DNA from: Sneathiella sedimenti
Lineage (GTDB): Bacteria > Pseudomonadota > Alphaproteobacteria > Sneathiellales > Sneathiellaceae
DNA length: 64,000 nt
Assembly (NCBI RefSeq): GCF_017313765.1
Contig: NZ_JAFLNC010000004.1
Span: 124,001 to 188,000, forward strand
Direction: 5' to 3'
A program made the position numbers and the translations under genes. Of the stretch, positions 1,805 through 20,034 are shown in pieces; the first letter of the stretch is position 1, and each line of letters opens with the position of its first letter. Under the pieces are notes generated by a model. It searched no databases, was not told the origin of the DNA, and was given only the letters and a program-made list of their open reading frames with translations.

Positions 1805-2698
1805 TTATTTAAGATTGGGGGGCAGGACGGGCGTTTCCCGAAGCAGGATTATACTGATCCGGCGGTTCCCGGGGTTCGATGGATCATCGGAAATCAACGG
1901 ATCCGTATCCGCCCGGCCCGCAACTTTTTCAATCCGGTCCGGGGCGAGCCCGGCATCCAACAGGGCGCGGCGGCTGGCATTGGCACGATCAGAGGACAGT
2001 TCCCAGTTCGTGTAGTCGCCGCCATTGAAGGACGAACTGTCCGTATGGCCGCTGATGGACAAGCTGTTGGGCAGTTCCTCAATCGATTTGACGATCATCC
2101 CGACCAGCGCCCGGATGCGCGGGGTGATTTTGGCGCTGCCGCTTTCAAACATGCTTTCGTTAAACTGGTCGACGATCTGGATGCGCAGGCCTTCTGGCGT
2201 CATGTCGATGATCACGTGATCCTTGAGGCCGGAGAGCTCGGGGTCCTTGTTGATTGCCTGGCGAATCTGTTCGCGGGCCTGTTCAAAGCTGGCTTCCTCA
2301 ATCTTCGCCAGCTTTTCAAGGAGTTCCGCTTCCTCCATTTCCCGTGTTTTCTTGGCGTCCTTGGTTTCACCCTTGCTGCCGTTCTCCGGCGGGCTGATGC
2401 TGGAAACGACGGAGGGAACACCAAGGTCGGAAACTCGCGAGCCTTCCGTCTGCATGCTGGTCCCACCAAGCATGCCGCCGGCTCCGGATTGGCTGATGCT
2501 GGCGGTTGTCGGCGCGAAATAGTCGGAGAGCCCCTCTTTTTGCTCGGTTGTCGTCACGTTGAGAAGCCAGAGCAACAGGAAGAACGCCATCATCGCCGTC
2601 ACGAAGTCGGCATAGGCAACCTTCCAGGCACCGCCATGGGCGCCGTGGCCGCCTTTCTTGACTTTCTTGACGATAATCGGGGCGAGATCATCCGCCAT
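1805..2698 (-). CDS. motB: Flagellar motor stator protein MotB
   Basis: MotB couples ion flow to torque and anchors the stator to peptidoglycan. The 297-residue protein has a short cytoplasmic N-terminus, one membrane helix with the ion-binding aspartate (D31 in VAYADFVTAMM), a linker rich in charged residues, and a C-terminal OmpA-like peptidoglycan-binding domain (ISGHTDSSSF and later NRRISIILLR). It follows motA by 29 bases on the same strand and is surely co-transcribed. Length and domain order are normal. The helix does not by itself decide between H+ and Na+ coupling. Confidence 0.96.
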   Translation of the reverse strand: MADDLAPIIVKKVKKGGHGAHGGAWKVAYADFVTAMMAFFLLLWLLNVTTTEQKEGLSDYFAPTTASISQSGAGGMLGGTSMQTEGSRVSDLGVPSVVSSISPPENGSKGETKDAKKTREMEEAELLEKLAKIEEASFEQAREQIRQAINKDPELSGLKDHVIIDMTPEGLRIQIVDQFNESMFESGSAKITPRIRALVGMIVKSIEELPNSLSISGHTDSSSFNGGDYTNWELSSDRANASRRALLDAGLAPDRIEKVAGRADTDPLISDDPSNPGNRRISIILLRETPVLPPNLK

Positions 2699-2727
2699 GG
2701 GACACCCTTACACTGTCAGGAAACATA

Positions 2728-3585
2728 TCAGATGGTCGGCGCTTCATTGCAGGCTTCTTCCAGTTCGATGAAGGAAGGACGTTCATGGTTATAGAGAGTC
2801 TTGCGGGCGAACTCGACCGACACGGCCGGGGCATAACCCTGCAAATGGGCGAGCAATCCCTGCTTGATGCATTCGAAATACTTTCCGTCCGCGTCCGAGA
2901 ACTGCTCGAGATTCTTGCCCATGGGCGAAAAGAGTCCGTAGGCCACGAAAATACCGAAGAAAGTACCGACAAGTGCCGCGGCAATCAGGCCACCCAGCAC
3001 TTCCGGCGGCTCGGCAATGGAGCCCATGGTCACGATCACGCCGAGAACGGCGGCAACAATACCGAAGGCCGGCAGGGCTTCGCCAAGTGCGGTCACCGCG
3101 CCGGAAATGGCATGTCCCTCGTTATGGTGGGTCTCGATATCCTGGTCCATCAGGGCTTCAAGCTCATGCGGATTTTCGGTCCCCATGGTCATCAGCCGGA
3201 GATAGTCGCAGACAAAGTCCACTGCATGGTGATTTTTCGAAAAGCTCGGGAAATGCTGGAACAGCTCACTTTCGTGAGGGTTCTCGATATGCGGTTCCAG
3301 TGCGATCATCCCCTTGGACTTGGAAAGCTTGAACAGGGCGTACAGCAGCGTGAGCAGCTCTGTATAGGCTTTCTTGTCATAGGGGGCGCCTTTCATCAGC
3401 TTGCCGAACGACTTGAGGAATCCGAAGATCACCCATTTCGGGTTGGCCTGCAGGAAGGCGCCGGCCGCTGCCCCCAGAATAATCAGGAATTCAAGCGGTT
3501 GGAACAGCACGGCAAAACTGCCGTGCGGCGCATAACCACCGGCGACGGAGCCGAATGTCACAACGATACCAATAATCCAAAACAT
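2728..3585 (-). CDS. motA: Flagellar motor stator protein MotA
   Basis: MotA forms the ion channel and torque-generating cytoplasmic loop of the flagellar stator with MotB. The 285-residue protein has two N-terminal membrane helices, a long charged cytoplasmic loop (about residues 60-160) and two more helices starting near ALGEALPAFGIVAAVLGVIVTM, typical of the MotA/TolQ/ExbB family. It is the first gene of a motA-motB pair transcribed leftward. A possible CtrA half-site lies 63 bases upstream of the start. No other flagellar genes are in the window. Confidence 0.96.
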   Translation of the reverse strand: MFWIIGIVVTFGSVAGGYAPHGSFAVLFQPLEFLIILGAAAGAFLQANPKWVIFGFLKSFGKLMKGAPYDKKAYTELLTLLYALFKLSKSKGMIALEPHIENPHESELFQHFPSFSKNHHAVDFVCDYLRLMTMGTENPHELEALMDQDIETHHNEGHAISGAVTALGEALPAFGIVAAVLGVIVTMGSIAEPPEVLGGLIAAALVGTFFGIFVAYGLFSPMGKNLEQFSDADGKYFECIKQGLLAHLQGYAPAVSVEFARKTLYNHERPSFIELEEACNEAPTI

Positions 3586-3647
3586 TCTTACACAGAGGTC
3601 CTTACACGATGGCTTCCAAGGATTGAGGGCCTGATTTTGCCCCGAAA

Positions 3648-7695: not shown

Positions 7696-8751
<1,056 letters not shown>

Positions 8752-8779
8752 CTATGCGCGCCGGGTCGCAAATGTTTAA

Positions 8780-8797
8780 ACCTAACGATCGTTTGGT
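8780..8797. promoter_or_regulatory. 18-bp palindromic operator candidate
   Basis: The sequence ACCTAACGATCGTTTGGT is symmetrical except for one T/T mismatch pair. It lies between divergent hemB (83 bases away) and the acyl-CoA dehydrogenase gene (67 bases away). Its length and centre resemble sites of TetR-family regulators of acyl-CoA catabolism. No such regulator gene is in the window. Confidence 0.5.
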
Positions 8798-8863
8798 AAT
8801 TTATTGACAGCCATCACGCAAGGTCGTATCAACGAGGCAGAGCAGAAAAAGAGGCCGACACCC

Positions 8864-10015
8864 ATGGACTTTAATCTATCGGAAGAACAGGTGGCTTTTC
8901 GCGATATGGCGCGAAGTTTTGCTGCCGAGGTCTTCGCCCCCAACGCTGAAAAATGGGATGAGGAAAGAACATTCCCTGTCATGGAAATGCGGAAAGCTGC
9001 CGAGCTCGGTTTTGCCGGCATCTATGTGGGGGAGGAGCATGGCGGCTCCGCGCTCACCCGTCTCGATGCGGCAATCATCTTTGAGGAACTGGCGGCAGGC
9101 TGTACCTCCACCGCGGCCTTTATCTCGATCCATAATATGGCCAGCTGGATGATCGACCGGTTCGGCTCGGATGCGGTGCGGGAAAAATTCCTGCCCAAGC
9201 TGACCAGCATGGAACATTTCGCGAGCTACTGCCTGACTGAGCCCGGCTCCGGGTCCGATGCGGCTGCGCTCCGGACCAAGGCGGAACGCGACGGCGATCA
9301 TTATGTTCTGAACGGGGGCAAGGCCTTTATCTCCGGTGGCGGCAAGGCGGATGTCTATGTGACCATGGTCCGCACGGGCGAGGATGGCCCGAAAGGGATC
9401 AGCTGTATCGCCGTTCCCGCGGATGCGCCAGGCATCAGCTTTGGTGCGCAGGAACGCAAGATGGGCTGGAACTCGCAGCCGACCGCGCAGGTCCTGTTTG
9501 ATGACTGCCGCGTTCCGGTCGAAAATCTTATCGGCAACGAAGGCGACGGCTTCAAGATCGCGATGATGGGCCTTGATGGCGGGCGACTCAATATCGGGGC
9601 CTGCTCTATCGGCGCCGCACGGGCCTGTCTTGAGCTTGCGCAAAGTTACACCGCCGATCGCAAGCAGTTCGGCAAACCCATCGGCAGCTTTCAGGCACTA
9701 CAATTTAAGCTTGCGGACATGGCGACGGATCTGGAGGCGGCGCGGCTGATGATCCGGCAGGCGGCGGCGAAGCTGGACGCGAAGGACCCGGAAGCAACAC
9801 TCTATTGCGCCATGGCGAAAAGATTCGCGACTGATGTCGGCTTCAATGTCTGTAACGAAGCGCTGCAGCTTCATGGCGGCTATGGTTATCTGCGGGATTT
9901 CCCGCTGGAGCGCTTTGTGCGCGATACGCGGGTGCATCAGATTCTGGAAGGCACCAACGAGATCATGCGCGTCGTAATCTCGCGCAAGCTGGCTGAGGGT
10001 GAGGGGAGAAGCTAG
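8864..10015 (+). CDS. Acyl-CoA dehydrogenase, isobutyryl-CoA dehydrogenase-like
   Basis: This FAD enzyme has 383 residues. Signatures are [18 protein letters not shown], the flavin-contacting [21 protein letters not shown], and the catalytic glutamate in [12 protein letters not shown]. It removes alpha,beta hydrogens from an acyl-CoA and passes electrons to ETF. The downstream 3-hydroxyisobutyryl-CoA hydrolase and an enoyl-CoA hydratase point to isobutyryl-CoA (valine degradation). The open frame begins at 8804, but homology begins at MDFNLSEEQ, so the ATG at 8864 is chosen. The hydrolase ATG follows the stop by 3 bases. Confidence 0.9.
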
Positions 10016-10018
10016 GGT

Positions 10019-11074
10019 ATGAGTGAGGACGCAGAAATCCTGTTCGAGATAAGAGGCGCGATTGGCCTTGTCACGCTGAACCGTCCGAAGGCGCTGAATG
10101 CGCTCACCCACGAGATGTGCCTCGCGTTGGATGCAAAGCTGAAAGAATGGGAAACGGAAGCGGGCGTACAGGCCGTCCTGATCGAGGGGGCAGGTGAGAA
10201 AGCCTTTTGCGCCGGCGGCGATATCGTCAAGCTTTATAACGAGGGCAAGAGCGGCGGTGACTATCCCTATCATTTCTACCGCGATGAATATCTTCTCAAT
10301 ACGCGGATCAAGCATTTCCCGAAGCCTTATATTGCGCTGATCGACGGGATCGTCATGGGCGGCGGCGTTGGCGTTTCGGTCCACGGCAGCCACCGCATCG
10401 CCACCGAACGCACCCTGTTCGCCATGCCCGAAAGCGGCATCGGCCTCTTCCCCGATGTGGGCGGGACCTATTTCCTGCCGCGCCTGGAAGGGGAACTTGG
10501 CATGTATCTCGGCCTTACCGGGGCACGGCTTAGAACAGCGGATTCCGTCTTTGCCGGGATCGCCCAGCGCTATATCCCGTCCGAGAAGCTGCCCGCATTG
10601 AAAGACGCCCTCGCCGCGCATGAGTTTGCGGGCGATACCAGCGCGGAGATTGACGCGCTGATCGAGAAATTTGCCGCCGACTCCGGCGATGCGCCGATTG
10701 CAGACACCTTGCCCGCGATCAACCGCCATTTCGCACGAGGCTCGGTCCCGGCGATTATCGAGAGCCTGCAAGCCGATAGCGACGCGTTCGCGACGAAGAC
10801 AGCTGACAGCCTGCTCACCAAGTCACCGACCAGCATGAAGCTTACCTTTGAGCAGCTCCGACGCGGCGCGAAACTTGATTTTGACGATTGCATGCGGCAG
10901 GAATTCCGCATGGTCAACCGCGTCATCAAGGGGGTTGATTTTTATGAGGGCACCCGCGCCGTTGTCATCGACAAGGACCAGTCCCCGAAATGGAACCCGG
11001 CCCGCCTTGATGAGGTGAGCGACGCGGAGATTGAGGCCTATTTCGAAGCCCTGCCTGACGGAGAGTTGTTCTAG
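10019..11074 (+). CDS. 3-hydroxyisobutyryl-CoA hydrolase (crotonase superfamily)
   Basis: The 351-residue length exceeds simple crotonases and fits the HIBCH subfamily. HIBCH signatures are AFCAGGDIVKLY, GIVMGGGVGVSVHGSHRIAT and MPESGIGLFPDVGGTYFLPR, where the glutamate and aspartate are the hydrolase catalytic pair. The enzyme frees 3-hydroxyisobutyrate from CoA in valine catabolism. It starts 3 bases after the acyl-CoA dehydrogenase stop, so the two form an operon. Its product would be the substrate of a 3-hydroxyisobutyrate dehydrogenase such as the candidate at 4413. Confidence 0.92.
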   Translation: MSEDAEILFEIRGAIGLVTLNRPKALNALTHEMCLALDAKLKEWETEAGVQAVLIEGAGEKAFCAGGDIVKLYNEGKSGGDYPYHFYRDEYLLNTRIKHFPKPYIALIDGIVMGGGVGVSVHGSHRIATERTLFAMPESGIGLFPDVGGTYFLPRLEGELGMYLGLTGARLRTADSVFAGIAQRYIPSEKLPALKDALAAHEFAGDTSAEIDALIEKFAADSGDAPIADTLPAINRHFARGSVPAIIESLQADSDAFATKTADSLLTKSPTSMKLTFEQLRRGAKLDFDDCMRQEFRMVNRVIKGVDFYEGTRAVVIDKDQSPKWNPARLDEVSDAEIEAYFEALPDGELF

Positions 11075-11081
11075 CGTCCGC

Positions 11082-11384
11082 CTACCAGAGCGGTTTGTCG
11101 AGCCCTTCGAGCAGGACGAACTGCCCTTCGGCGGCGTCCTTTCGGGCGTCGCGCGCCTTCCGGTACTCGGGGCTGTCGTAGAACGCCTTCGCCGCCGCCA
11201 TATCCGGATATTCAAGGAGGACCATTCGCCGGGTTTCCGTCGGCCCTTCCAGTGTTTCCATCGCCCCGCCGCGTGTTAAATACCGTCCGCCGTATTTTTT
11301 GATGGCGATCGGCGCAAGGGATTTATAGACTTCATACTGCTCGGGGTCGGTGACATCGATCCGGGCGATCATATAAGCGGGCAT
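11082..11384 (-). CDS. DUF1330 domain protein
   Basis: This small protein of 100 residues has a dimeric ferredoxin-like alpha/beta fold pattern. It begins MPAYMIARIDVTDPEQYEVY and contains KYGGRYLTRGG and the C-terminal YRKARDARKDAAEGQFVLLE, all characteristic of DUF1330. The biochemical role of the family is unknown. Homology begins at this ATG, although the frame extends to 11438. It is convergent with the HIBCH gene and divergent from the enoyl-CoA hydratase gene at 11437. Confidence 0.88.
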   Translation of the reverse strand: MPAYMIARIDVTDPEQYEVYKSLAPIAIKKYGGRYLTRGGAMETLEGPTETRRMVLLEYPDMAAAKAFYDSPEYRKARDARKDAAEGQFVLLEGLDKPLW

Positions 11385-11436
11385 TTTACGGTCCTTTTCT
11401 GCGATCCAATTAATAAAAACAATAAGGGGGAATAGC

Positions 11437-12231
11437 ATGAGCTACAAGTATGTAACAGTCACACGGGAAGGGCGCATCGCCACCGTCCGCTTCGATCGGG
11501 GAACCGATGTCAACGCCATGTCCATCGAGCTGATGGGGGAACTGACGGATGTCGCCCGCTCGTTTGAGGGGGATACGGAACTGAGCGCCATCATCCTCAC
11601 CGGCAACGGGAAAAATTTCACCGTCGGCTATGACCTGAAGGACCCCGCGGTCAAGGCGCGGGTCTCGGCCGGCGTGATGGACCGGCGGGAGATGCTGAAA
11701 GTCGGCCCGAAGATGAGCAAGGCGTGGGAGGATCTGGAGCCCATGACTATCGTCGCCGTGGATGGCTATTGCATCGGCGGGGGCGTGGCCCTCTCTGTTG
11801 CCTGCGATATGCGCGTTGCGTCAAAGGGCGCGACCTTCTGGGTGCCGGAAATCCGCAACGGCATGAACATGAGCTGGCAGTCCGTGCCGCGTATGGTCAA
11901 CCTGATGGGCCCGGCCCGTACCAAGCAGCTCTGCATCATTGCCGACAAGATCAGCGCCGATAAAGCCATGCAATGGGGCCTCATTGAGGAAGTGGCGGAG
12001 GAGGGCGGCGCCTACGCGCTCGCGCTCGAATTCGCAAAGAAAATTGCCGCCATGCCACCGCTCCCCGTCCGCATGATCAAGCAGGGCGCCTCAGTTGCCG
12101 CCAACGCCCTCAACCACGCCGTCAGCTATATGGATATGGACCAATACACCGTCGCCATCACCTCCGAAGACCACGCCGAGGGCATCAAAGCCTTCCTCGA
12201 AAAACGCGACCCGGTGTTTAAGGGGCGGTAG
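11437..12231 (+). CDS. Enoyl-CoA hydratase/isomerase family protein
   Basis: This is a crotonase-fold protein of 264 residues. The oxyanion-hole segments are FTVGYDLKD and GYCIGGGVALSVACDMRVAS. Of the two hydratase glutamates, the first position is alanine (GGGVALS) and the second is kept (WVPEIRNGM). It may therefore be an isomerase or another crotonase activity rather than a typical hydratase. It lies beside HIBCH and an acyl-CoA dehydrogenase. Its end marks the left border of the AT-rich reverse-transcriptase island. Confidence 0.85.
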   Translation: MSYKYVTVTREGRIATVRFDRGTDVNAMSIELMGELTDVARSFEGDTELSAIILTGNGKNFTVGYDLKDPAVKARVSAGVMDRREMLKVGPKMSKAWEDLEPMTIVAVDGYCIGGGVALSVACDMRVASKGATFWVPEIRNGMNMSWQSVPRMVNLMGPARTKQLCIIADKISADKAMQWGLIEEVAEEGGAYALALEFAKKIAAMPPLPVRMIKQGASVAANALNHAVSYMDMDQYTVAITSEDHAEGIKAFLEKRDPVFKGR

Positions 12232-12270
12232 TGGGGGAAAACTTAAATTTTTTTCTATCTTCTATTGAAT

Positions 12271-12298
12271 TTTGCAAACCTCAACACATGTATATGAT
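12271..12298 (+). promoter_or_regulatory. Candidate sigma-70 promoter for the RT leader RNA
   Basis: TTTGCA (12271-12276) and TATGAT (12293-12298) are separated by 16 bases and lie just inside the AT-rich island. Transcription would begin near 12305 and run through the hairpin-rich leader into the reverse transcriptase gene. AT-rich DNA gives such matches by chance, so confidence is modest. Confidence 0.3.
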
Positions 12299-12304
12299 GT
12301 TCGC

Positions 12305-12627
12305 AGGCTTGCCCTGTGTTCTATCCGCTAACAAAGATGAATAATCGGGGGTAGTGGAGTTGTGCTTAGAACTGTCAAGACCTATTGTGAATTCAGTTAT
12401 TGCGATGATTAAGTTCATTGCGATCTCCTCGAAATCGATCTGGTCTTGCGACCATAAGATTAATATCTTCATGGTTACTATATAGCACATGACGTCGAAA
12501 GACATGCAGACCTAGAGCAGATTGGATAAACATGCCTATTCTGCTCGCGTCCAATAGACGGGGTGGAGATGGTTAAGCGGGATGCAACCCGTTATGCTCC
12601 ACCCCTCTCGCATTATTGGGAGGGGGT
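12305..12627 (+). ncRNA. Candidate structured ncRNA/leader upstream of the reverse transcriptase
   Basis: Five hairpins lie one after another. 12450-12476 has GACCAT and AAGAT paired with ATCTT and ATGGTT around the loop TAAT. 12515-12546 has GAGCAGA paired with TCTGCTC and an 18-base loop. 12548-12560 is CGTC/GACG. 12576-12593 is AGCGGG/CCCGTT. 12601-12627 is ACCCCTCTC/GGGAGGGGGT with one bulged G. The octamer ATTGCGAT repeats directly at 12399 and 12417. Defence-associated RT systems such as DRT2 and DRT9 carry an ncRNA directly 5' of the RT gene. The RNA ends given here are estimates. Confidence 0.45.
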
Positions 12628-12628
12628 A

Positions 12629-14095
12629 ATGGACGATCAGATTTTAATGCAAAACGACCTTAAATGGTATCCGCACTTTGACGATGCGATTTCAGTTGAA
12701 GATGCAACTGAATATATCCAATCCCCAGAACTCGTTTCAAAGCACAACTTTTTTCCGTTTTTGAAGTATTCGCAAAGATGGACGAAATACGCAAAAAAGG
12801 GAGAAAAGGGTAAGGTCAAAGAACGCGAAATTAGATACGCGGCAAGAAAAGATGCGTATATCTATATGCATTATAGGCGAATTTTATCTAAATCATATGA
12901 ACAGTGTTTGTTAGCTTCGGGTCTTAATGAAAGTATTCTAGCTTATCGAAAATTGCTTAAGAAGGACGGCGTGTCCGGTAAATGTAATATCGATTTCGCG
13001 AAAGAAGCATTTGATGAAATTAAGCGTCTAGGGGATTGTACCGTAGTTGCTTTGGATATCAGTAGTTACTTTGAGTCGCTGGACCACGAACTTCTATATT
13101 GTTTGTGGTGTCAAATGCTAGAGGTTGAACGCCTTCCAAAAGATCATTTTCATGTTTTCAGGAATATAACATCATACTCAATCGTTGATCTTCAAGATGT
13201 TTATGAAAGGCTTGGTTACTTCGGCAATAAAACCAAGGGTAAAGCTGGTAATGATATTAAGGGCTATCTTGTCTCTAAGCGAGAAATGCCAACTAAACTA
13301 TGTGATGGTAAGACATTTAGACAGAAAATTATTGGTCATGGTGGAAAAGGAAAATCTCTAGTTCGTAAGAATTTCAAGCCTTATGGTATACCACAAGGAG
13401 CGCCGATTTCCGACTTGCTGGCTAACCTCTATTTACTCGAGTTCGATAAATTGGTTAATAGTTGGATGCAAGCAGTTGGCGGTAAATATTTGAGATATTC
13501 AGATGATATTTTGCTCATTTTACCAGGCGGAAAAAAAGAGGGAATCCAATATTTTAGGAAGGTTCAAGAATCCATAAATAAATTTGGGACGAAGTTAAAA
13601 ATATCCGACGCGAAATCTTCGGTTTTTGTTTTTGAAAATAACGGGGAGTTTCAATATTTCTCAGTTGTTTTTGGTGAAAAAGGAAAAAATGGTCTTGAAT
13701 ACCTAGGTTTTAGATATAATGGCAGGGCAGTTTTTATTCGGGATTCAACTTTATCTAACTTGCATCGTAAAATCACGTTTGAAGCTAAGCGGCAGGCATA
13801 CGCTCACGTATTGAGATATCCCGGAAAAAATATTGAGGAACTGAAATCACTATTCAATTATGAACAAGCTATCAAGAGATTTGGTCGGGTTGAGGACTTT
13901 GGGAGTGATGGCTTTCCGTCTGAGAAAAGTGTGTATAAATCATGGACGTTTTGGACTTATATCACAAGAGCAGTCAAAACTTTTCAAGGAACACGAAATA
14001 GATTTTATAGACAGATGAAATGTCATGAGAAAATTGTGAGAGATCGTATTGATGATGGATTGGCCCGCGCATTAAGACGAGTGAATGCCTCTTGA
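12629..14095 (+). CDS. Reverse transcriptase, probable UG/Abi (defence-associated, DRT2-like) type
   Basis: From this ATG the product has 488 residues. RT motifs appear in order: the motif A aspartate in VVALDISSYFESLDH, the QG motif in GIPQGAPISDLLANLYLLEF, the catalytic YSDD in LRYSDDILLIL, and LEYLGFRYNG. There is no intron maturase, endonuclease or retron-type VTG signature, which argues against group II introns. The family impression (KWYPHFD near the start, KEREIRYAARKDAYIY) is of DRT2/UG2-like antiviral RTs, from memory only. The gene is far more AT-rich than its neighbours and sits between two crotonase genes, so it was probably acquired. A GTG at 12563 and an ATG at 12569 are in frame, but 12629 has GGGAGG five bases upstream. 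Confidence 0.85.
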   Translation: MDDQILMQNDLKWYPHFDDAISVEDATEYIQSPELVSKHNFFPFLKYSQRWTKYAKKGEKGKVKEREIRYAARKDAYIYMHYRRILSKSYEQCLLASGLNESILAYRKLLKKDGVSGKCNIDFAKEAFDEIKRLGDCTVVALDISSYFESLDHELLYCLWCQMLEVERLPKDHFHVFRNITSYSIVDLQDVYERLGYFGNKTKGKAGNDIKGYLVSKREMPTKLCDGKTFRQKIIGHGGKGKSLVRKNFKPYGIPQGAPISDLLANLYLLEFDKLVNSWMQAVGGKYLRYSDDILLILPGGKKEGIQYFRKVQESINKFGTKLKISDAKSSVFVFENNGEFQYFSVVFGEKGKNGLEYLGFRYNGRAVFIRDSTLSNLHRKITFEAKRQAYAHVLRYPGKNIEELKSLFNYEQAIKRFGRVEDFGSDGFPSEKSVYKSWTFWTYITRAVKTFQGTRNRFYRQMKCHEKIVRDRIDDGLARALRRVNAS

Positions 14096-14150
14096 TTTTG
14101 CGTTAATGTTTTGGAAAGTGCAATTTAGGTTGTTCACCCACCCAACCCCC

Positions 14151-14175
14151 GCGTGACGGCGGTGTGCCGCCACGC
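14151..14175. repeat. GC-rich hairpin at the right edge of the RT island
   Basis: GCGT...GGCGG tgtg CCGCC ACGC forms a stem with a three-base bulge between the convergent reverse transcriptase and crotonase genes. There is no T-tract, so it may be a weak terminator or an intergenic palindromic unit. Base composition returns to GC-rich here. Confidence 0.4.
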
Positions 14176-14199
14176 CGGGTATAGGCGCTCACTAATCCC

Positions 14200-14976
14200 T
14201 TATGAAAATTTGCCGTGGCGGCCGGTGCCTTTGACGAAGGTTCCGGCGCCGGACTGGAAGGCGTCGCGGAAGGCGTCTTTCGCCCCCTCGATTTCTCGGT
14301 CGATGGCCTCTTCCTCGGGATAATCCCATTGGCGAATGGCTGACTTTCGATCGCAGAGCAGGGCCGATTGCGGGAACGCCGCAAGCTGCCTTGCGAGGTC
14401 AAGTGCCTCCTCCAGCGCCTTGCCCGTCTCCGCCAGCCGGTCGGCGAGCCCGATGCGATAGGCCTCTTCAGCGTCCACGGGCCGTCCCGTCATCAACATG
14501 TCGAGCGCGCGGCTCTCCCCGATGATGCGGGGCAGGCGCACCGTCGCGCCATTTGGCATCGGTCCGCCGAAGCGACGACAGAACACCCCGAAAACGGCGC
14601 TCTTGCTGGCGACGCGCATATCACACCAGACCGCGAGGGCAAGTCCCGCCGCGACCGCATGTCCCTCCACCGCCGCGATCACGGGTTTTTCGAGGCGGCG
14701 GCGGGTCGCGCCCTTGTCGGTGCCGGCCCAGCTAAATCCGATTGCACTGCCGGAGGCAATTTCTTCAAGGTCTGCCCCGGCGCTGAAATAACCGCCAGCA
14801 CCCGTCAGTATGGCGATGCGGGCCGTCTCGTCCTGCTCGAACTCCTGGAACGCGTCATGCAGGGCGCGCACCATTTCCACGGTGCAGGCGTTACGCTGTT
14901 CTGCGCGGTTGATGGTAACGATGGTGACGGGGCCATCCCTGGTCACCTCGATTTTGCCGTCGGCATATGTTTTCAT
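14200..14976 (-). CDS. Crotonase/enoyl-CoA hydratase family protein
   Basis: This crotonase-fold protein has 258 residues. FSAGADLEEIA and GHAVAAGLALAVWCDMRVAS form the acyl-CoA oxyanion hole. Neither hydratase glutamate is kept: the second region reads FGVFCRRFGGPMPNGATVRL. The same CRRFGVP-like variant occurs in a conserved crotonase subgroup of unclear reaction. It faces the reverse transcriptase gene tail to tail across 104 bases and is divergent from an alpha/beta hydrolase gene. Confidence 0.85.
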   Translation of the reverse strand: MKTYADGKIEVTRDGPVTIVTINRAEQRNACTVEMVRALHDAFQEFEQDETARIAILTGAGGYFSAGADLEEIASGSAIGFSWAGTDKGATRRRLEKPVIAAVEGHAVAAGLALAVWCDMRVASKSAVFGVFCRRFGGPMPNGATVRLPRIIGESRALDMLMTGRPVDAEEAYRIGLADRLAETGKALEEALDLARQLAAFPQSALLCDRKSAIRQWDYPEEEAIDREIEGAKDAFRDAFQSGAGTFVKGTGRHGKFS

Positions 14977-15148
14977 GATCTGACCTGTTGTTTTTATAGT
15001 TGGGGGCCGGTTGATCCCTGGCGACGTCCGCCCAAGGAAGTCGCCTTCAGGTTAAGAGAATTTCGCTTGAATTGCCAGTGAAAGAGCGATTAATCTGACG
15101 TTCCGGGCCGGTAGTACCCGTGCCGTAAATTCTATCTGTGAGTGCTGT

Positions 15149-15964
15149 ATGAGCCTGTTTCGAAAGATTATCCTCTCGATTATTGCGCTGGTGATGCTCT
15201 TTGGTGTGATCCCCTTTACGGGGATTTATTTTGCGCAAGGGGCGTTTGTCTTTCCGGTGCCCGATCGCGGGGCAGGGGAGGCCGCTGGCGGGTTCGAGGC
15301 GGTGACGATCACCACCGAAGATGGGGAGCAGCTCAACGCCTTCTATCACCCACCGGGGGAAAAGGCGGCGAGCATCCTCGTCTTTCATGGCAATGCGGAG
15401 ACAGCGGCGAACCAGATGACGCGCGGGCAGGCGCTGGCCACGGCGGGCTATGGCGTGCTGCTCGCGGAATATCGCGGCTATGGTGGCAGCACGGGCAAAC
15501 CGTCGGAGGCGGGGATCATCACCGATGGCCTCGCATCCTATGATTTTCTGGTGGCGAAGACGGAGGGGCCGGTCGGCATTCTCGCCCATTCGCTCGGCAC
15601 CGGGGCGGCGATCCCCGTGGCAGCGGCGCGCGATCCCTTCGCGGTGGTGCTGGAAAGCCCGTTTACGTCCCTGCTGGCCATTGCGCGCTATCGCGTGCGG
15701 TTGATGCCGCCGCTTGATTTCCTGGTGAAATACCCGTTCCGCAATGACGCAGTGATCGGGGAGGTACGCGCGCCGATCCTGATCATTCACGGCACCGAGG
15801 ACAGGGTCATCCCGTTTGAAGAGGGGGAGAAGCTCGCCACCCTCGCGCCGAAGGGCACCGCCTTTATCAAGATCGAGGGCGCCGGCCATAATAACCTCGG
15901 CCAGTATGACGACATAAAAATGGCGACCAGCTTCTTCACGAAAGCACTGGCCGCCAATCCGTAG
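15149..15964 (+). CDS. Alpha/beta hydrolase with N-terminal membrane anchor
   Basis: The 271-residue protein starts with a basic tip and one hydrophobic segment (about residues 8-31), a signal anchor. The hydrolase domain follows: the oxyanion region LVFHGNAETAANQ, the nucleophile serine in GILAHSLGTGAAI, the aspartate in IHGTEDRVIPFEEG and the histidine in EGAGHNNLGQYDD. This arrangement is like the BEM46/YfhR serine hydrolases. The substrate is unknown and probably met at the periplasmic face. Its stop is 16 bases from the convergent SDR gene. Confidence 0.85.
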   Translation: MSLFRKIILSIIALVMLFGVIPFTGIYFAQGAFVFPVPDRGAGEAAGGFEAVTITTEDGEQLNAFYHPPGEKAASILVFHGNAETAANQMTRGQALATAGYGVLLAEYRGYGGSTGKPSEAGIITDGLASYDFLVAKTEGPVGILAHSLGTGAAIPVAAARDPFAVVLESPFTSLLAIARYRVRLMPPLDFLVKYPFRNDAVIGEVRAPILIIHGTEDRVIPFEEGEKLATLAPKGTAFIKIEGAGHNNLGQYDDIKMATSFFTKALAANP

Positions 15965-15980
15965 CGCGAAACGCGCGCTT

Positions 15981-16745
15981 TTACTTCACATAGGCGTCGC
16001 GGAGTTTGCGCATGCCTTTCAGCCAGCGGTCATAGTCCGTTGCCTTGCGCTGGATATATTCGCGGACCTGCGGGTGGGGGAGGATAAGAAACTCTTCCTT
16101 GTCCATGGTCTCGACCACGCAGTCGGCAAGCTCTTCCGGTTCCATCGTGCCATCGACGGAGGCGACACTGCCGAGCCGGTCCTTGGTCATCGCGGTGCGG
16201 ACCTGCTGCGGGCAGAGGACGGAAACGCGTAACCCCTTGTCGCCGTAACGGATGGAGAGAGTTTCCGCAAAGGCGACCGCCGCATGCTTTGTCGTGGCGT
16301 AGGTCGCGCTGTCGACCTGCGAGAGCAGGCCGGCGGCCGAGGCGGTGTTGACCAGATAGCCGCCGCCATTGGCGATCATCTTGTCAACCACGGCGCGGGC
16401 GGCATAGACATGGGCCATCACATGGACATCCCAGTTCAGCTGCCAGATATCATTCGGCGTTTCTTCCCAGCCATAGCGGGCGAGGCCGGCGTTGGAGACA
16501 AAGATATCGATCGGGCCATAGGCCTCCTCCGCCTTGGCGACGAGGTTCTGGATGTCCGATTCTTTGCCGACGTTGGTTGGAACGGCGAGACCATTGACGG
16601 ATTTCGCCACTTCCTGGAGCGGTCCTTCCTGCAGGTCGGCGACGGTGATGCCCTTCGCCCCCTCCGCATGGAAGCGTTCGGCAAGCGCCTTTCCGATGCC
16701 GCTTGCCCCGCCTGTAATCACAACATTCTTGCCCGCTATTTTCAT
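15981..16745 (-). CDS. SDR family oxidoreductase
   Basis: This short-chain dehydrogenase has 254 residues. It has the cofactor motif TGGASGIGKALAERF near the N-terminus, NAGLARYGWEE in the middle, a serine in VNTASAAGLLSQ and the catalytic YATTKHAAVAFAE. The C-terminal third, with PHPQVREYIQRKATDYDRW, resembles SDRs found with acyl-CoA genes. It lies 60 bases downstream of the glutaryl-CoA dehydrogenase gene on the same strand and may be in one transcript with it. The substrate is unknown. Confidence 0.85.
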   Translation of the reverse strand: MKIAGKNVVITGGASGIGKALAERFHAEGAKGITVADLQEGPLQEVAKSVNGLAVPTNVGKESDIQNLVAKAEEAYGPIDIFVSNAGLARYGWEETPNDIWQLNWDVHVMAHVYAARAVVDKMIANGGGYLVNTASAAGLLSQVDSATYATTKHAAVAFAETLSIRYGDKGLRVSVLCPQQVRTAMTKDRLGSVASVDGTMEPEELADCVVETMDKEEFLILPHPQVREYIQRKATDYDRWLKGMRKLRDAYVK

Positions 16746-16805
16746 TTTTTCCTCCCGCAGCTTGAGGCTGCTTTATTGGTTTATGGGGCCGATTGTGGCG
16801 TTATT

Positions 16806-17999
16806 TCACGCGCCGGTAAAGGACTGAATGCCCGTCTGGGCGCGGCCCAGAATCAGCGCGTGCACGTCATGGGTACCCTCATATGTATTGACGGCCTCCA
16901 GGTTCATGACATGGCGGATGACGTGATATTCATCGGAGATACCGTTGCCACCATGCATGTCGCGGGCGGTCCGGGCGATATCGAGGGCTTTGCCGCAGGA
17001 GTTGCGCTTGATCAGCGAGATCATTTCCGGCGCGGCGCGGTTCTCGTCCCGCAGGCGTCCAACACGGAGGCAGCTCTGCAGGCCGATGGAGATTTCCGTC
17101 TGCATATCGGCGAGCTTTTTCTGGATCAGCTGGTTCGCGGCGAGGGGACGGCCGAACTGCTTGCGCTCCATTGTGTAGTTGAGCGCGGCCTGCCAGCAGA
17201 ACTCGGCGGCGCCAAGCGCGCCCCAGGCGATGCCGAAGCGGGCGGAGTTGAGGCATCCGAATGGACCGCCGAGGCCCTTGACACCCGGCAGCAGATTTTC
17301 TTCCGGAACGAAGACATTGTCCATGACGATCTCGCCGGTGATGGAAGCGCGAAGAGAGAATTTCCCTTCGATCTTCGGCGCGGAGAGCCCTTCCATGCCT
17401 TTTTCAAGGATGAAGCCGCGGATGACACCGTCATCGGTTTTCGCCCAGACGACGAACACATCGGCGACAGGGGAGTTGGTGATCCACATCTTCGCGCCGT
17501 TCAGGTTATAGCCGCCATCGACGGATTTCGCGCGCGTAACCATGGAGCCGGGATCTGAGCCGTGATCGGGCTCGGTCAGGCCGAAGCAGCCGATCCATTC
17601 ACCGGTCGCGAGTTTCGGCAGGTATTTCTGTTTCTGCTCCTCGGTGCCGTAGGCATTGATCGGATGCATGACGAGGCTGGACTGCACGCTCATCATTGAG
17701 CGATAGCCGCTGTCGACCCGCTCAACTTCGCGCGCAACAAGGCCGTAGGAGACATAGCCAAGACCGGCGCAGCCATAACCCTCGATCGTGGAGCCGAGAA
17801 GACCCAGTTCCCCCATCTCGGTGAAGATGGCCCGGTCAAAGGTCTCGTGGCGGTTCGCTTCCAGAACCCGGCTCATCAGCTTTTCCTGGCAGTAGTCGCG
17901 GGCGGTATCGCGGACCAGCCGCTCTTCTTCGGTCAGCTGGTCATCCAGCAGAAAGGGATCAACAGGGTCAAAAACGGGTTTGGAAGAGGCGCTGCTCAT
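16806..17999 (-). CDS. Glutaryl-CoA dehydrogenase-like acyl-CoA dehydrogenase
   Basis: This FAD acyl-CoA dehydrogenase has 397 residues, the usual glutaryl-CoA dehydrogenase length. Diagnostic segments are [52 protein letters not shown] and the catalytic glutamate in [16 protein letters not shown]. The enzyme oxidises and decarboxylates glutaryl-CoA to crotonyl-CoA in lysine/tryptophan breakdown. The ATG at 17999 has GGAG eight bases upstream, so the 29-residue extension to 18086 is not translated. The inverted repeat AATATA-N6-TATATT (18013-18030) lies just upstream of the ribosome site. Confidence 0.93.
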
Positions 18000-18156
18000 A
18001 AGGTTATCTCCGAATATATGTTTGTATATTTTGGCCGGGAGGCGGCATATGACCGTCTGTTTAGCCGCTTTGCGCTGCAACATCAATATGCTTCATGCGC
18101 GGGAACGATATATGCTAAGCTCATCCGGCGTCGGGAATTAAGCGGACAGACAGGCA

Positions 18157-18408
18157 ATGTCATCAGAAGAGAAAAGCGAATATATCGTCGAGTTCCAGCA
18201 GCATGGCACGTCCGTGAAAGTGTCGGTGATCGACCCCAGGACAATGCTGGAAGTTTCTATCGTCGGGCCGAGCTCGGCCGGGCAGGAGGAGCTTAAACGC
18301 ACGGCGCTCGCCAAGCTGCAATATGTGATGAACAAGAAGAAGGGGCCGCCGGCCACGGAGAAGACGTCTGCCCCCGATACGCCAAAGAAGCCGGGGATTG
18401 TCGTCTAG
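18157..18408 (+). CDS. DUF6898-like small conserved protein
   Basis: This 83-residue acidic/basic protein has the core VEFQQHGTSVKVSVIDPRT, EVSIVGPSSAGQEELKRTAL and AKLQYVMNKKK. I recognise it, with moderate confidence, as the alphaproteobacterial DUF6898 family, a small domain of unknown function. The C-terminus is a lysine/proline-rich tail. No signal peptide or membrane segment is visible. It is divergent from the glutaryl-CoA dehydrogenase gene and convergent with the phosphoethanolamine transferase gene, 9 bases away. Confidence 0.7.
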   Translation: MSSEEKSEYIVEFQQHGTSVKVSVIDPRTMLEVSIVGPSSAGQEELKRTALAKLQYVMNKKKGPPATEKTSAPDTPKKPGIVV

Positions 18409-18417
18409 CCTGGCGGA

Positions 18418-20034
18418 TTAGTGGAGATTAGGTTCGGGCTTCAGGGGCAGGATGCTCGACCCGCTGGCGATTTTGTTCCGGTCCACGATAACTTCGAAAA
18501 CCTCCAAAAGAAGCTTGCTGAAATCATCGTGGGTCATCGGGTCATTGGTGCGGGCCCGCAACCGGTCCCGATCGATATCCGATGACTCGCTCGCCCAGAT
18601 AATAAAGGGCACATGGGTTTGCGTTTCCGGCGCGACAAGATAGGGCATTCCATGCAGATAGACCCCCATCTCGCCAAGTGATTCTCCATGGTCGCTTAAA
18701 TAGATCAGCGATGTTTCATAGCGATCCTGCTTGCCCTTCAGATACTCTATCGCGGCATCCAGAAAGCTGTCGGTATAGAGAATGCTGTTGTCATAGGCAT
18801 TGACGATCTCGGAGTTGGCGCAGGACCCGAGTTCCTTTGACTGGCAGTCCGGTGTAAAGACCGCGTAGTCATCAGGATAGCGCTTGAAATAGGCGGGTCC
18901 GTGGCTTCCCATCTGGTGCAGGACGATCAGGATATCGCCCTCCTGCCGGGCAATATATTCGTCCAGCCCGTCCAGCATGCCGATATCGCGGCATTCCTCT
19001 ACATCACAGCGGCGGTTTCTTTCCGGCGTGTTGAAAAGTTCATAGGGCATGCGGTTCGCCACCCCCTGCGAGCCGGTATTGTTGTCCCGCCAGAGCACGG
19101 ACACGCCGGCCTTGACCAGTACATCGAGGGTATTCTCCGTGAAGCGCGCCTGATCGATGGCGAATTCCGACCGGTTATCGAGGGAGAACATGCAGGGCAG
19201 GGAGACCGCCGTCGAGGTGCCGCAGGAGCGCATATTGCTAAAGGAGATTATGTCATCCCGGCGGGAAAGTTTCGGTGTCGTTTGCCGCGCATATCCGTTC
19301 AGACCGAAGTGATCGGCGCGGGCCGTCTCGCCAATAACAACGATGACCAGTTCATGCTCTTCATCCTCGGCGGGGATATCCGCTGTTTTAACGCGAGGCC
19401 GGAAGGTCGTATCCATTGTGCCGCCGCCCGTATCAATGGCCAGCTTGATCACGGAATAGATCGGGTGGACTGGATTGGTGAAATACCGGAGCGGCTTGTG
19501 TTCGCGGAAAAGGCTGGCGTATGAATCGCCAAAGGGCGCCATGGTGAGCACCCCGACCAGCAGCGCGATTAGGGCCGCGCCGGCCAAGCGCCGCTGTCGC
19601 GCGAACAGGGGGGCTGGCTTGAGGGGAATCAGGACCATGAAGGCGGAAGGCAGGATGCCCAGCAGCCCGACCCGCATGATAAGCCCCCAGTTGAGCAGGT
19701 CGCCGGCCTCGTTGATATCTGTCGCGAGGACATTCCGGATCGTCTCCTTATCGATGGCGATGCCGAGGCTATCGCTGAAATAGCCGACAGTGGCGCCGGT
19801 TATCAGGAACAGAATGGCCACGAGCCGGACCGGCAAGAAGAAGCTGAAGATCGTCCCGAACAACATGATCGCACAGAGCAGGACAGCGCCCTGGGAGATG
19901 AGAAAAGGGAGGTATTGATCTATCCCGTAGACGGCGACGGTTTGCCTGAAGAACTGGGCATTTGCCGTTACCAGCAAAAACGCGGAAACGATCCACAACA
20001 GGGTGCTGTGGCTAAGAGAGAAACGAGGTTTCAT
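18418..20034 (-). CDS. Lipid A phosphoethanolamine transferase (EptA family)
   Basis: The product has 538 residues. Five N-terminal membrane helices (about residues 10-180) are followed by a periplasmic sulfatase-like domain. The catalytic threonine is in SCGTSTAVSLPCMFS, metal ligands are in VVIGETARADHFG and YLSDHGESLGE, and MPYLVAPETQTHVPFIIW is a late family motif. The enzyme moves phosphoethanolamine from phosphatidylethanolamine to lipid A, usually lowering polycationic-peptide binding. The frame extends to 20118, but the membrane protein begins at the ATG at 20034. No PmrAB-type regulator is adjacent. Confidence 0.92.
   Translation of the reverse strand: MKPRFSLSHSTLLWIVSAFLLVTANAQFFRQTVAVYGIDQYLPFLISQGAVLLCAIMLFGTIFSFFLPVRLVAILFLITGATVGYFSDSLGIAIDKETIRNVLATDINEAGDLLNWGLIMRVGLLGILPSAFMVLIPLKPAPLFARQRRLAGAALIALLVGVLTMAPFGDSYASLFREHKPLRYFTNPVHPIYSVIKLAIDTGGGTMDTTFRPRVKTADIPAEDEEHELVIVVIGETARADHFGLNGYARQTTPKLSRRDDIISFSNMRSCGTSTAVSLPCMFSLDNRSEFAIDQARFTENTLDVLVKAGVSVLWRDNNTGSQGVANRMPYELFNTPERNRRCDVEECRDIGMLDGLDEYIARQEGDILIVLHQMGSHGPAYFKRYPDDYAVFTPDCQSKELGSCANSEIVNAYDNSILYTDSFLDAAIEYLKGKQDRYETSLIYLSDHGESLGEMGVYLHGMPYLVAPETQTHVPFIIWASESSDIDRDRLRARTNDPMTHDDFSKLLLEVFEVIVDRNKIASGSSILPLKPEPNLH

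Follow-up and report, generated by a model that had tools for sequence, protein, structure and literature searches.

In the DRT2 antiphage system of Klebsiella pneumoniae, a reverse transcriptase (RT) copies a 120-nt template within a 280-nt non-coding RNA (ncRNA) again and again, and the junctions between the copies create an antisense promoter and the stop-free gene neo, as described in two publications (Wilkinson et al., PMC12039810; Tang et al., PMC11100668). A hydrophobic bias of the Klebsiella Neo protein is reported there as well. A second relevant system is DRT9 (UG28), likewise a class 2 UG RT with an ncRNA, which is reported to make deoxyadenylate homopolymers from a poly-uridine tract that it reads as template (PMC12632851). 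For divergent clades of the DRT2 family, the 2024 DRT2 preprint regards the ncRNA as predictable and the annotation of Neo as 'more challenging', and it suggests other mechanisms (PMC11100668). Here we analyze a locus of Sneathiella sedimenti, in which an RT gene of 488 codons is directly preceded by a structured RNA. It is located in a stretch of 64,000 nt (contig NZ_JAFLNC010000004.1), which is called the window and to which all positions refer.

With a probability of about 0.84, this locus encodes a DRT2-type antiphage system with two components, in which concatemeric complementary DNA (cDNA) makes a toxic neo gene. A single transcript would yield both the structured ncRNA and the RT, and the RT would bind the ncRNA, as the structures of the Klebsiella system suggest. 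It would then copy the template (12365-12493), moving leftwards, and, having arrived at the left end beside the stem SL2, presumably jump to the right end, where the next round would start. The expected product is a tandem-repeat cDNA with a unit of 129 nt. After a putative second-strand synthesis, each junction would place TTGACA and TATATA 17 bp apart, which would form a promoter opposite to the ncRNA strand. The predicted neo transcript would possess a Shine-Dalgarno (SD) sequence and an ATG in each repeat and a single frame without a stop, encoding a hydrophobic Neo of 43-residue repeats. This protein, probably in response to a phage trigger, would halt the growth of the infected cell and thus provide the presumed antiviral function.

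The RT belongs to DRT2 (the UG2 RT family) by sequence models as well as by its fold. The two best PADLOC models are Drt2 models (PDLC03757, 4.9e-132, and PDLC02173, 3.7e-94), while the next other family reaches 1.1e-19, and the first NCBIfam match is also Drt2 (NF041746, 6.9e-107, 358.2 bits). The best chain of the Protein Data Bank by sequence is the Klebsiella DRT2 RT (9c0i, 8.5e-57; best non-DRT2 chain 5.2e-08). The same structure ranks first in a Foldseek search (6.2e-35, template modelling score 0.73/0.83) with an AlphaFold2 model of the RT that was built from 14 sequences and has a mean predicted local distance difference test score of 83.2; the next match is a group II intron RT (1.5e-11). 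The catalytic motif YSDD (residues 290-293) and the QG motif (residues 256-257) are present; the Klebsiella RT is shorter (425 amino acids) and possesses YCDD. The window RT has an extra loop at about residues 200-250.

The original prediction, made from the bare sequence, had proposed a defence RT of the UG/Abi class whose template ncRNA lies immediately 5' of the RT gene, had named DRT2 and DRT9 as models and had seen no signs of an intron or retron. The class and the DRT2 guess are supported, the latter also by the permuted promoter and the stop-free frame in the template. DRT9 is not the nearest family and was rejected, since the RT scores just 9.7e-12 on the PADLOC Drt9 model; no search for a poly-uridine tract was made in the window. 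The RTs of group II introns and retrons share the RT fold with the window RT and were rejected as well: the window RT reaches 67.3 of the 300 bits required by TIGR04416 and, with the best retron RT model, 44.1 of 235 bits. Rfam gave two chance matches between 12000 and 14300, far under the gathering scores, and no intron or retron family.

Scanning species genomes by pattern yielded 55 loci encoding relatives. The 22 closest ones (L002-L022, L024) are 42-48% identical in their best segments and mostly alphaproteobacterial, with two gammaproteobacterial metagenome-assembled genomes among them (L017, L021). In an RT tree of 49 rows, a branch with 100/100 support puts 28 rows of this clade, among them the window RT, opposite five Klebsiella-type and 16 other DRT2. 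This tree does not include genes interrupted by premature stops, and three long rows (L066, L023, L076) are of unsure place. By its sequence, the window RT is a member of a deep, mostly alphaproteobacterial branch of the DRT2 family, distinct from those studied so far. The RT genes of several clade loci contain premature stops or are split (L002, L007, L014, L022, L068, L072 and L061/L062); the upstream template frame in these loci remains open and of triplet length.

For the analysis of the template, 37 loci with upstream sequence were available, 36 of which were used after L017, which is without clear anchors, had been dropped. Not entered were L001, L070 and L071 (copies of the window, L005 and L012, respectively), L067 (upstream sequence consisting of N) and L062 (second half of the L061 gene). 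The 36 loci include near-copies (L063 and L068 near L002, L069 near L008, L072 near L014, L051 near L012) and were grouped into 22 clusters at 80% identity of the unit. Anchors were set automatically in 28 loci and manually in eight (L003, L021, L059, L060, L061, L064, L065, L066).

The ncRNA resembles that of K. pneumoniae in its position directly 5' of the RT gene, in a stem abutting the template and in a subsequent 3' scaffold that comprises a pseudoknot and a long hairpin. The region 12300-12622 is more stable than all of 100 shuffles (fold z -3.81), and so are the parts 12361-12489 (z -4.66) and 12490-12612 (z -3.85) with 200 shuffles each, whereas the 5' piece (12300-12365), folded by itself, does not exceed shuffle level (z -1.10). 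Near the 3' end, the motif CTCTCG (12605-12610) is conserved. In the 22 clusters, the two halves of SL2 pair with each other better than permuted halves do (270.5 vs 217.3, standard deviation 11.4; none of 5000 permutations was as good). Compared to the commonest form in the same register, CGTGT/ACACG, the window SL2 is altered at four paired positions with pairing kept. The scaffold of the window subgroup of seven sequences (alignment A6) shows a double change in 12 of 15 pairs, namely in 9/10 pairs of the tower-like hairpin, where zero to two sequences break a pair, and in 3/5 pairs of the buttress-like hairpin, where up to three of the seven do so. For the candidate pseudoknot, 27 of 5040 permutations were as good in the group of the window. 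The tower and the pseudoknot are 98.0% paired in a sister group of 16 loci, with a covariation score of 0.404 vs 0.229 that was reached by none of 500 shuffles, and with 29 double-change cells vs 9.8 in shuffles. The structured upstream ncRNA with scaffold hairpin and pseudoknot that is typical of DRT2 is supported by covariation in the sister group, and the hairpin also in the group of the window. The five consecutive hairpins of the original prediction were a fair first reading, but the homologs show a 5' handle, a template-enclosing stem and a 3' scaffold instead; the upstream region itself turned out to be conserved and covarying.

In the template region, the plus strand of most clade loci carries CTGTCAAG close to the left edge of a variable stretch and A(G/A)TATA..GTCG close to its right edge. 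On the minus strand, TTGACA and the -10 box thus stand in permuted order, as in K. pneumoniae, and they come to lie 17 bp apart once the unit is joined head-to-tail, a joining that would have to be accomplished by the RT. With automatic anchors, 22/22 loci, including the window, possess a stop-free antisense frame after closure of the unit, and the anchor distances (121, 124, 130, 133 and 142) are all 1 mod 3. The 17-bp spacer sets units of 120-150 nt (111-129 nt are reported for DRT2), which are multiples of three in 36/36 loci; the lengths of the scaffold, taken as a control, fall into all three classes mod 3 (21 of the 22 clusters measured). The same antisense frame is open and has an in-frame start codon in all 36 loci, while the other two are closed, in part due to the conserved boxes, since TTGACA contains TGA. 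An ATG or GTG in frame with an SD-like stretch within 16 nt was found in 36/36 loci by pattern and in 35 by eye, the SD sequence abutting the ATG in L065.

According to shuffles, the chance of an open frame is between 0.036 and 0.279 per cluster and 0.046 for the window at 129 nt, and the product over the 22 clusters, which have common ancestry and are hence not fully independent, has a log10 of -21.6. A scan that makes no use of anchors recovered the full pattern in 17/22 clusters (0.23 expected) and in 11/37 other DRT2 loci (0.40 expected). The neo frame is also hydrophobic, with a mean grand average of hydropathy (GRAVY) of 0.68 vs -0.27 for composition-matched sequences (21/22 clusters). 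This fits the bias reported for the Klebsiella Neo, although we consider it only moderate proof of the frame. Among the controls, the E. coli DRT2 locus L087 (ACA/ACA, 117 nt, one open frame) agrees with the published geometry, and L074 gives 111 nt and one open frame; L076 gave no clear unit.

In the window, the proposed unit boundary was set by the 17-bp promoter spacer and the homologs. The predicted Neo repeat is VMCYIVTMKILILWSQDQIDFEEIAMNLIIAITEFTIGLDSSK, and its last residue becomes N if the right-hand base serves at the junction (unit 12366-12494), as is the case in 26 of 28 other aligned units (exceptions: Y in L021, K in L064). A tandem cDNA of 129-nt units would carry the junction TTGACAGTTCTAA(C/G)..TATATA, and its ambiguous base would distinguish between 12366-12494 and 12365-12493. 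Other units were rejected: 126 and 132 nt would bring the spacer to TATATA to 14 or 20, and 120 nt (direct repeat GTC/GTC, spacer 8) would not yield a promoter, besides which this repeat is lost in L003, L021, L060, L064, L065 and L066.

One difference to K. pneumoniae concerns the junction. From the published text, we worked out that the Klebsiella ACA repeats are located 6 nt before the complement of the -35 box and 11 nt after that of the -10 box. The clade lacks both ACA-1 and ACA-2: a typical clade locus reads TTA vs CGA at the 6/11 position, and the Klebsiella geometry was rejected for the clade because of its poor fit. Instead, GT is found 8 and 9 nt from the promoter boxes. In 35 of the 36 loci, the left and the right junction site start with the same two bases (34 GT/GT, CT/CT in L064), but the right-hand GT was inside the automatic anchor and is not independent, so that the left-hand GT, present in 27/28 automatic loci, is the freer evidence. 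The start codon is also placed differently, 60 nt after the -10 box in the window vs 24 nt in the E. coli control according to our own scan. On the far side of the tree, five DRT2 loci of the Lachnospiraceae type possess a permuted TTGACA/TATAAT-like promoter, followed 45 nt beyond the -10 box by an SD-ATG in frame. With a 135-nt unit and a spacer of 17, they show direct repeats on the GT position 8 nt from the -35 complement or one base ahead of it, namely GTATT (L044, L048), GTA (L049) and CGTATT (L050, L053), but they also pass the scan with other unit lengths, nearly all without repeats. These repeats seem to support the 8/9 geometry, for which the window is the weakest case. The RT frame of L044 is broken early.

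Besides the dependence of the right-hand GT on the anchor and the other unit lengths allowed by the Lachnospiraceae-type loci, several observations weigh against the DRT2-type reading. The RT stays below the Drt2 equivalog cutoff of NF041746 (358.2 vs 390 bits). Since this cutoff is not reached and the ACA feature is absent, we regard the locus as a divergent variant of the DRT2 type rather than the canonical equivalog. At the junction, the window is the lone exception among the 36 loci, with CTT vs GTC and only the T matching. Its -10 box matches the consensus at only four of six positions, and the -35 boxes of L003 and L021 are poor. The frame alone has no power to separate a unit of 129 nt from 126 or 132, and 129 was chosen because of the 17-bp spacer. 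The scan without anchors failed in 5/22 clusters, and L017 was excluded for lack of anchors. With regard to the controls, the junction of L074 is ACA against ATA, with an exact repeat AGAT at 4, and L075 is off the rule (145 nt, no open frame). One plus-strand frame is hydrophobic as well (0.40), being the top of the six frames in 9/22 clusters vs 12/22 for the neo frame. Finally, we did not detect purifying selection on the Neo amino acids: the ratio of non-synonymous to synonymous differences (pN/pS) is 0.93 in the neo frame vs 0.59 in another frame (91 pairs).

The lack of constraint at the amino acid level would be expected if the cDNA were non-coding, for instance a structural or titrating DNA, and the open frame a relic or a side effect of constraints acting on the promoter and the RNA. 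The promoter boxes by themselves also fix some of the residues (Y and LD). However, the minute shuffle chance of the open frame over the 22 clusters, the start codon kept in frame and the high mean hydrophobicity, which persists without the six end residues on each side (GRAVY 0.66), make this explanation improbable, though it survives better than the others. Still less credible is an ordinary antisense small gene, whose minus-strand SD-ATG would lead to a short peptide or leader with a stop beyond the template and without any reverse transcription. The neo frame indeed stops one codon past the left end in 6/22 clusters, which gives a linear mini-ORF (open reading frame) there, but in the window it extends 27 codons further. 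Moreover, in 36/36 loci the frame stays open ahead of the ATG as well, up to and across the -10 box, which a mini-ORF would not require; the triplet constraint covers the whole unit length, and linear transcription would call for the opposite order of the promoter halves. Least likely of all, the window copy might be decaying, with RT and RNA remaining and the jump defunct through loss of the left junction dinucleotide, as its deviating junction and the broken RT genes of L002, L007, L014 and L022 could suggest, but its RT frame is intact with the catalytic motifs, its SL2 has changed with pairing preserved, and its template frame is open against the odds.

The putative neo gene itself and the absence of the Klebsiella ACA repeats from the clade go beyond the original prediction. 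If the DRT2-type reading is true, this deep clade has a neo that can be read from the sequence and that differs in its junction and in the placement of the ribosome site. We slightly favor the view that the DRT2 family as a whole inherited the creation of genes by tandem reverse transcription from its ancestor and that ACA repeats are not required for it, the rule being a 17-bp neo promoter across a short junction (GT at 8/9 in this clade and in Lachnospiraceae-type loci, ACA at 6/11 in Klebsiella-type loci). In that case, neo genes would be legible in genome sequences on either side of the deepest split of the tree. This raises the questions of whether the RT jumps at GT-GT and how general the rule of the 17-bp neo promoter is. 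Searching the sequence in front of RTs for permuted promoters together with antisense frames of triplet length might also lead to genes that are invisible to annotation. Among the papers listed by a literature search without access to supplements, subscription articles or the journal version of the Tang preprint, none describes neo in this clade in its title or the opening of its abstract.

Table 1. Positions of the features of the RT locus in the window
Feature	Positions	Strand	Basis or remark
Template, one putative neo repeat unit (129 nt, 43 codons)	12365-12493	-	Stop-free; reads VMCYIVTMKILILWSQDQIDFEEIAMNLIIAITEFTIGLDSS(K/N)
Candidate neo promoter, -35 box TTGACA	12373-12378	-	Near unit end in sense direction; exact in 26/29 listed loci
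Candidate neo promoter, -10 box TATATA (4/6)	12479-12484	-	Near unit start; 17 bp from -35 only once joined head-to-tail
Putative neo SD sequence GAGGAG	12425-12430	-	
Putative neo start codon ATG	12416-12418	-	In frame; 60 nt after -10
Right-hand junction site GTC	12494-12496	+	Left-hand counterpart CTT at 12365-12367
Structured ncRNA, approximately 310 nt (5' handle, template, 3' scaffold)	12300-12612	+	Fold, alignment A1 of 27 loci; ends approximate
5' handle, two predicted hairpins ahead of the template	12302-12358	+	Fold
SL2 left half TGTGCT	12361-12366	+	Pairs with 12484-12489, 6 bp in the window
SL2 right half AGCACA	12484-12489	+	Pairs with 12361-12366
Scaffold hairpin GAGCAGA/TCTGCTC, buttress-like	12515-12546	+	Fold, alignment A6
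Scaffold hairpin GGGGTGGAG/CTCCACCCC, tower-like	12560-12605	+	Fold, alignment A6
Candidate pseudoknot TGCA (12505-12508)/TGCA (12583-12586)	12505-12586	+	Weak in the window itself
RT gene, 488 amino acids, YSDD	12629-14095	+	ORF; profile, structure and fold matches
Candidate promoter of the ncRNA-RT transcript, TTTGCA-16-TATGAT	12271-12298	+	Consensus scan; directly upstream of the conserved RNA
Flanking gene	11437-12231	+	ORF list
Flanking gene	14200-14976	-	ORF list

The locus forms an AT-rich island, as had been noticed at first sight. Its GC content is 0.36-0.44 in 500-base windows spanning 12250-14249, compared to 0.53-0.67 in the other windows of 8000-20000, with the exception of a boundary window (0.49). 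The island holds a single ORF, that of the RT, with the ATG at 12629, the last codon at 14090-14092 and the stop at 14093-14095. The genes on either side of the island are presumably crotonases. The promoter suspected in front of the RNA does not rise above chance: it has 9/12 matches, and five such sites were counted in 12200-14250 vs 4.5 expected. No terminator-like site was found in 12200-14250.

The RT is present in only one of 25 genomes of the order, the genome of the window itself, and there is therefore no close copy for comparison. In larger samples, with the centre genomes counted, 4/385 (class), 5/297 and 6/394 genomes gave a match. A phage collection, queried with part of the Klebsiella RT only and not with the window RT, gave three records. 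One clade member (L063, IMGVR_UViG_2576861823_000003) is located on a contig of a viral collection, and its template unit has an identity of 0.99 to L002; this contig could be either a prophage or mis-called host DNA. In E. coli strain mip270_05 (L086), drt2 is immediately followed by a gene (2744-3640) with the annotation RipA family octameric membrane protein. In a genome of the same genus as the window (G011, L078), the same two flanking genes, with 80-82% identical DNA, surround another AT-rich gene, which encodes Abi_alpha (2446-3378; PF14337, 2.7e-52; PADLOC PDC-S47, 3.7e-58). Since Abi_alpha and the RT occur between the same flanks, at least two genomes have acquired distinct defence-type genes at this spot, and it is possible that the insertion site is a small defence hot spot.

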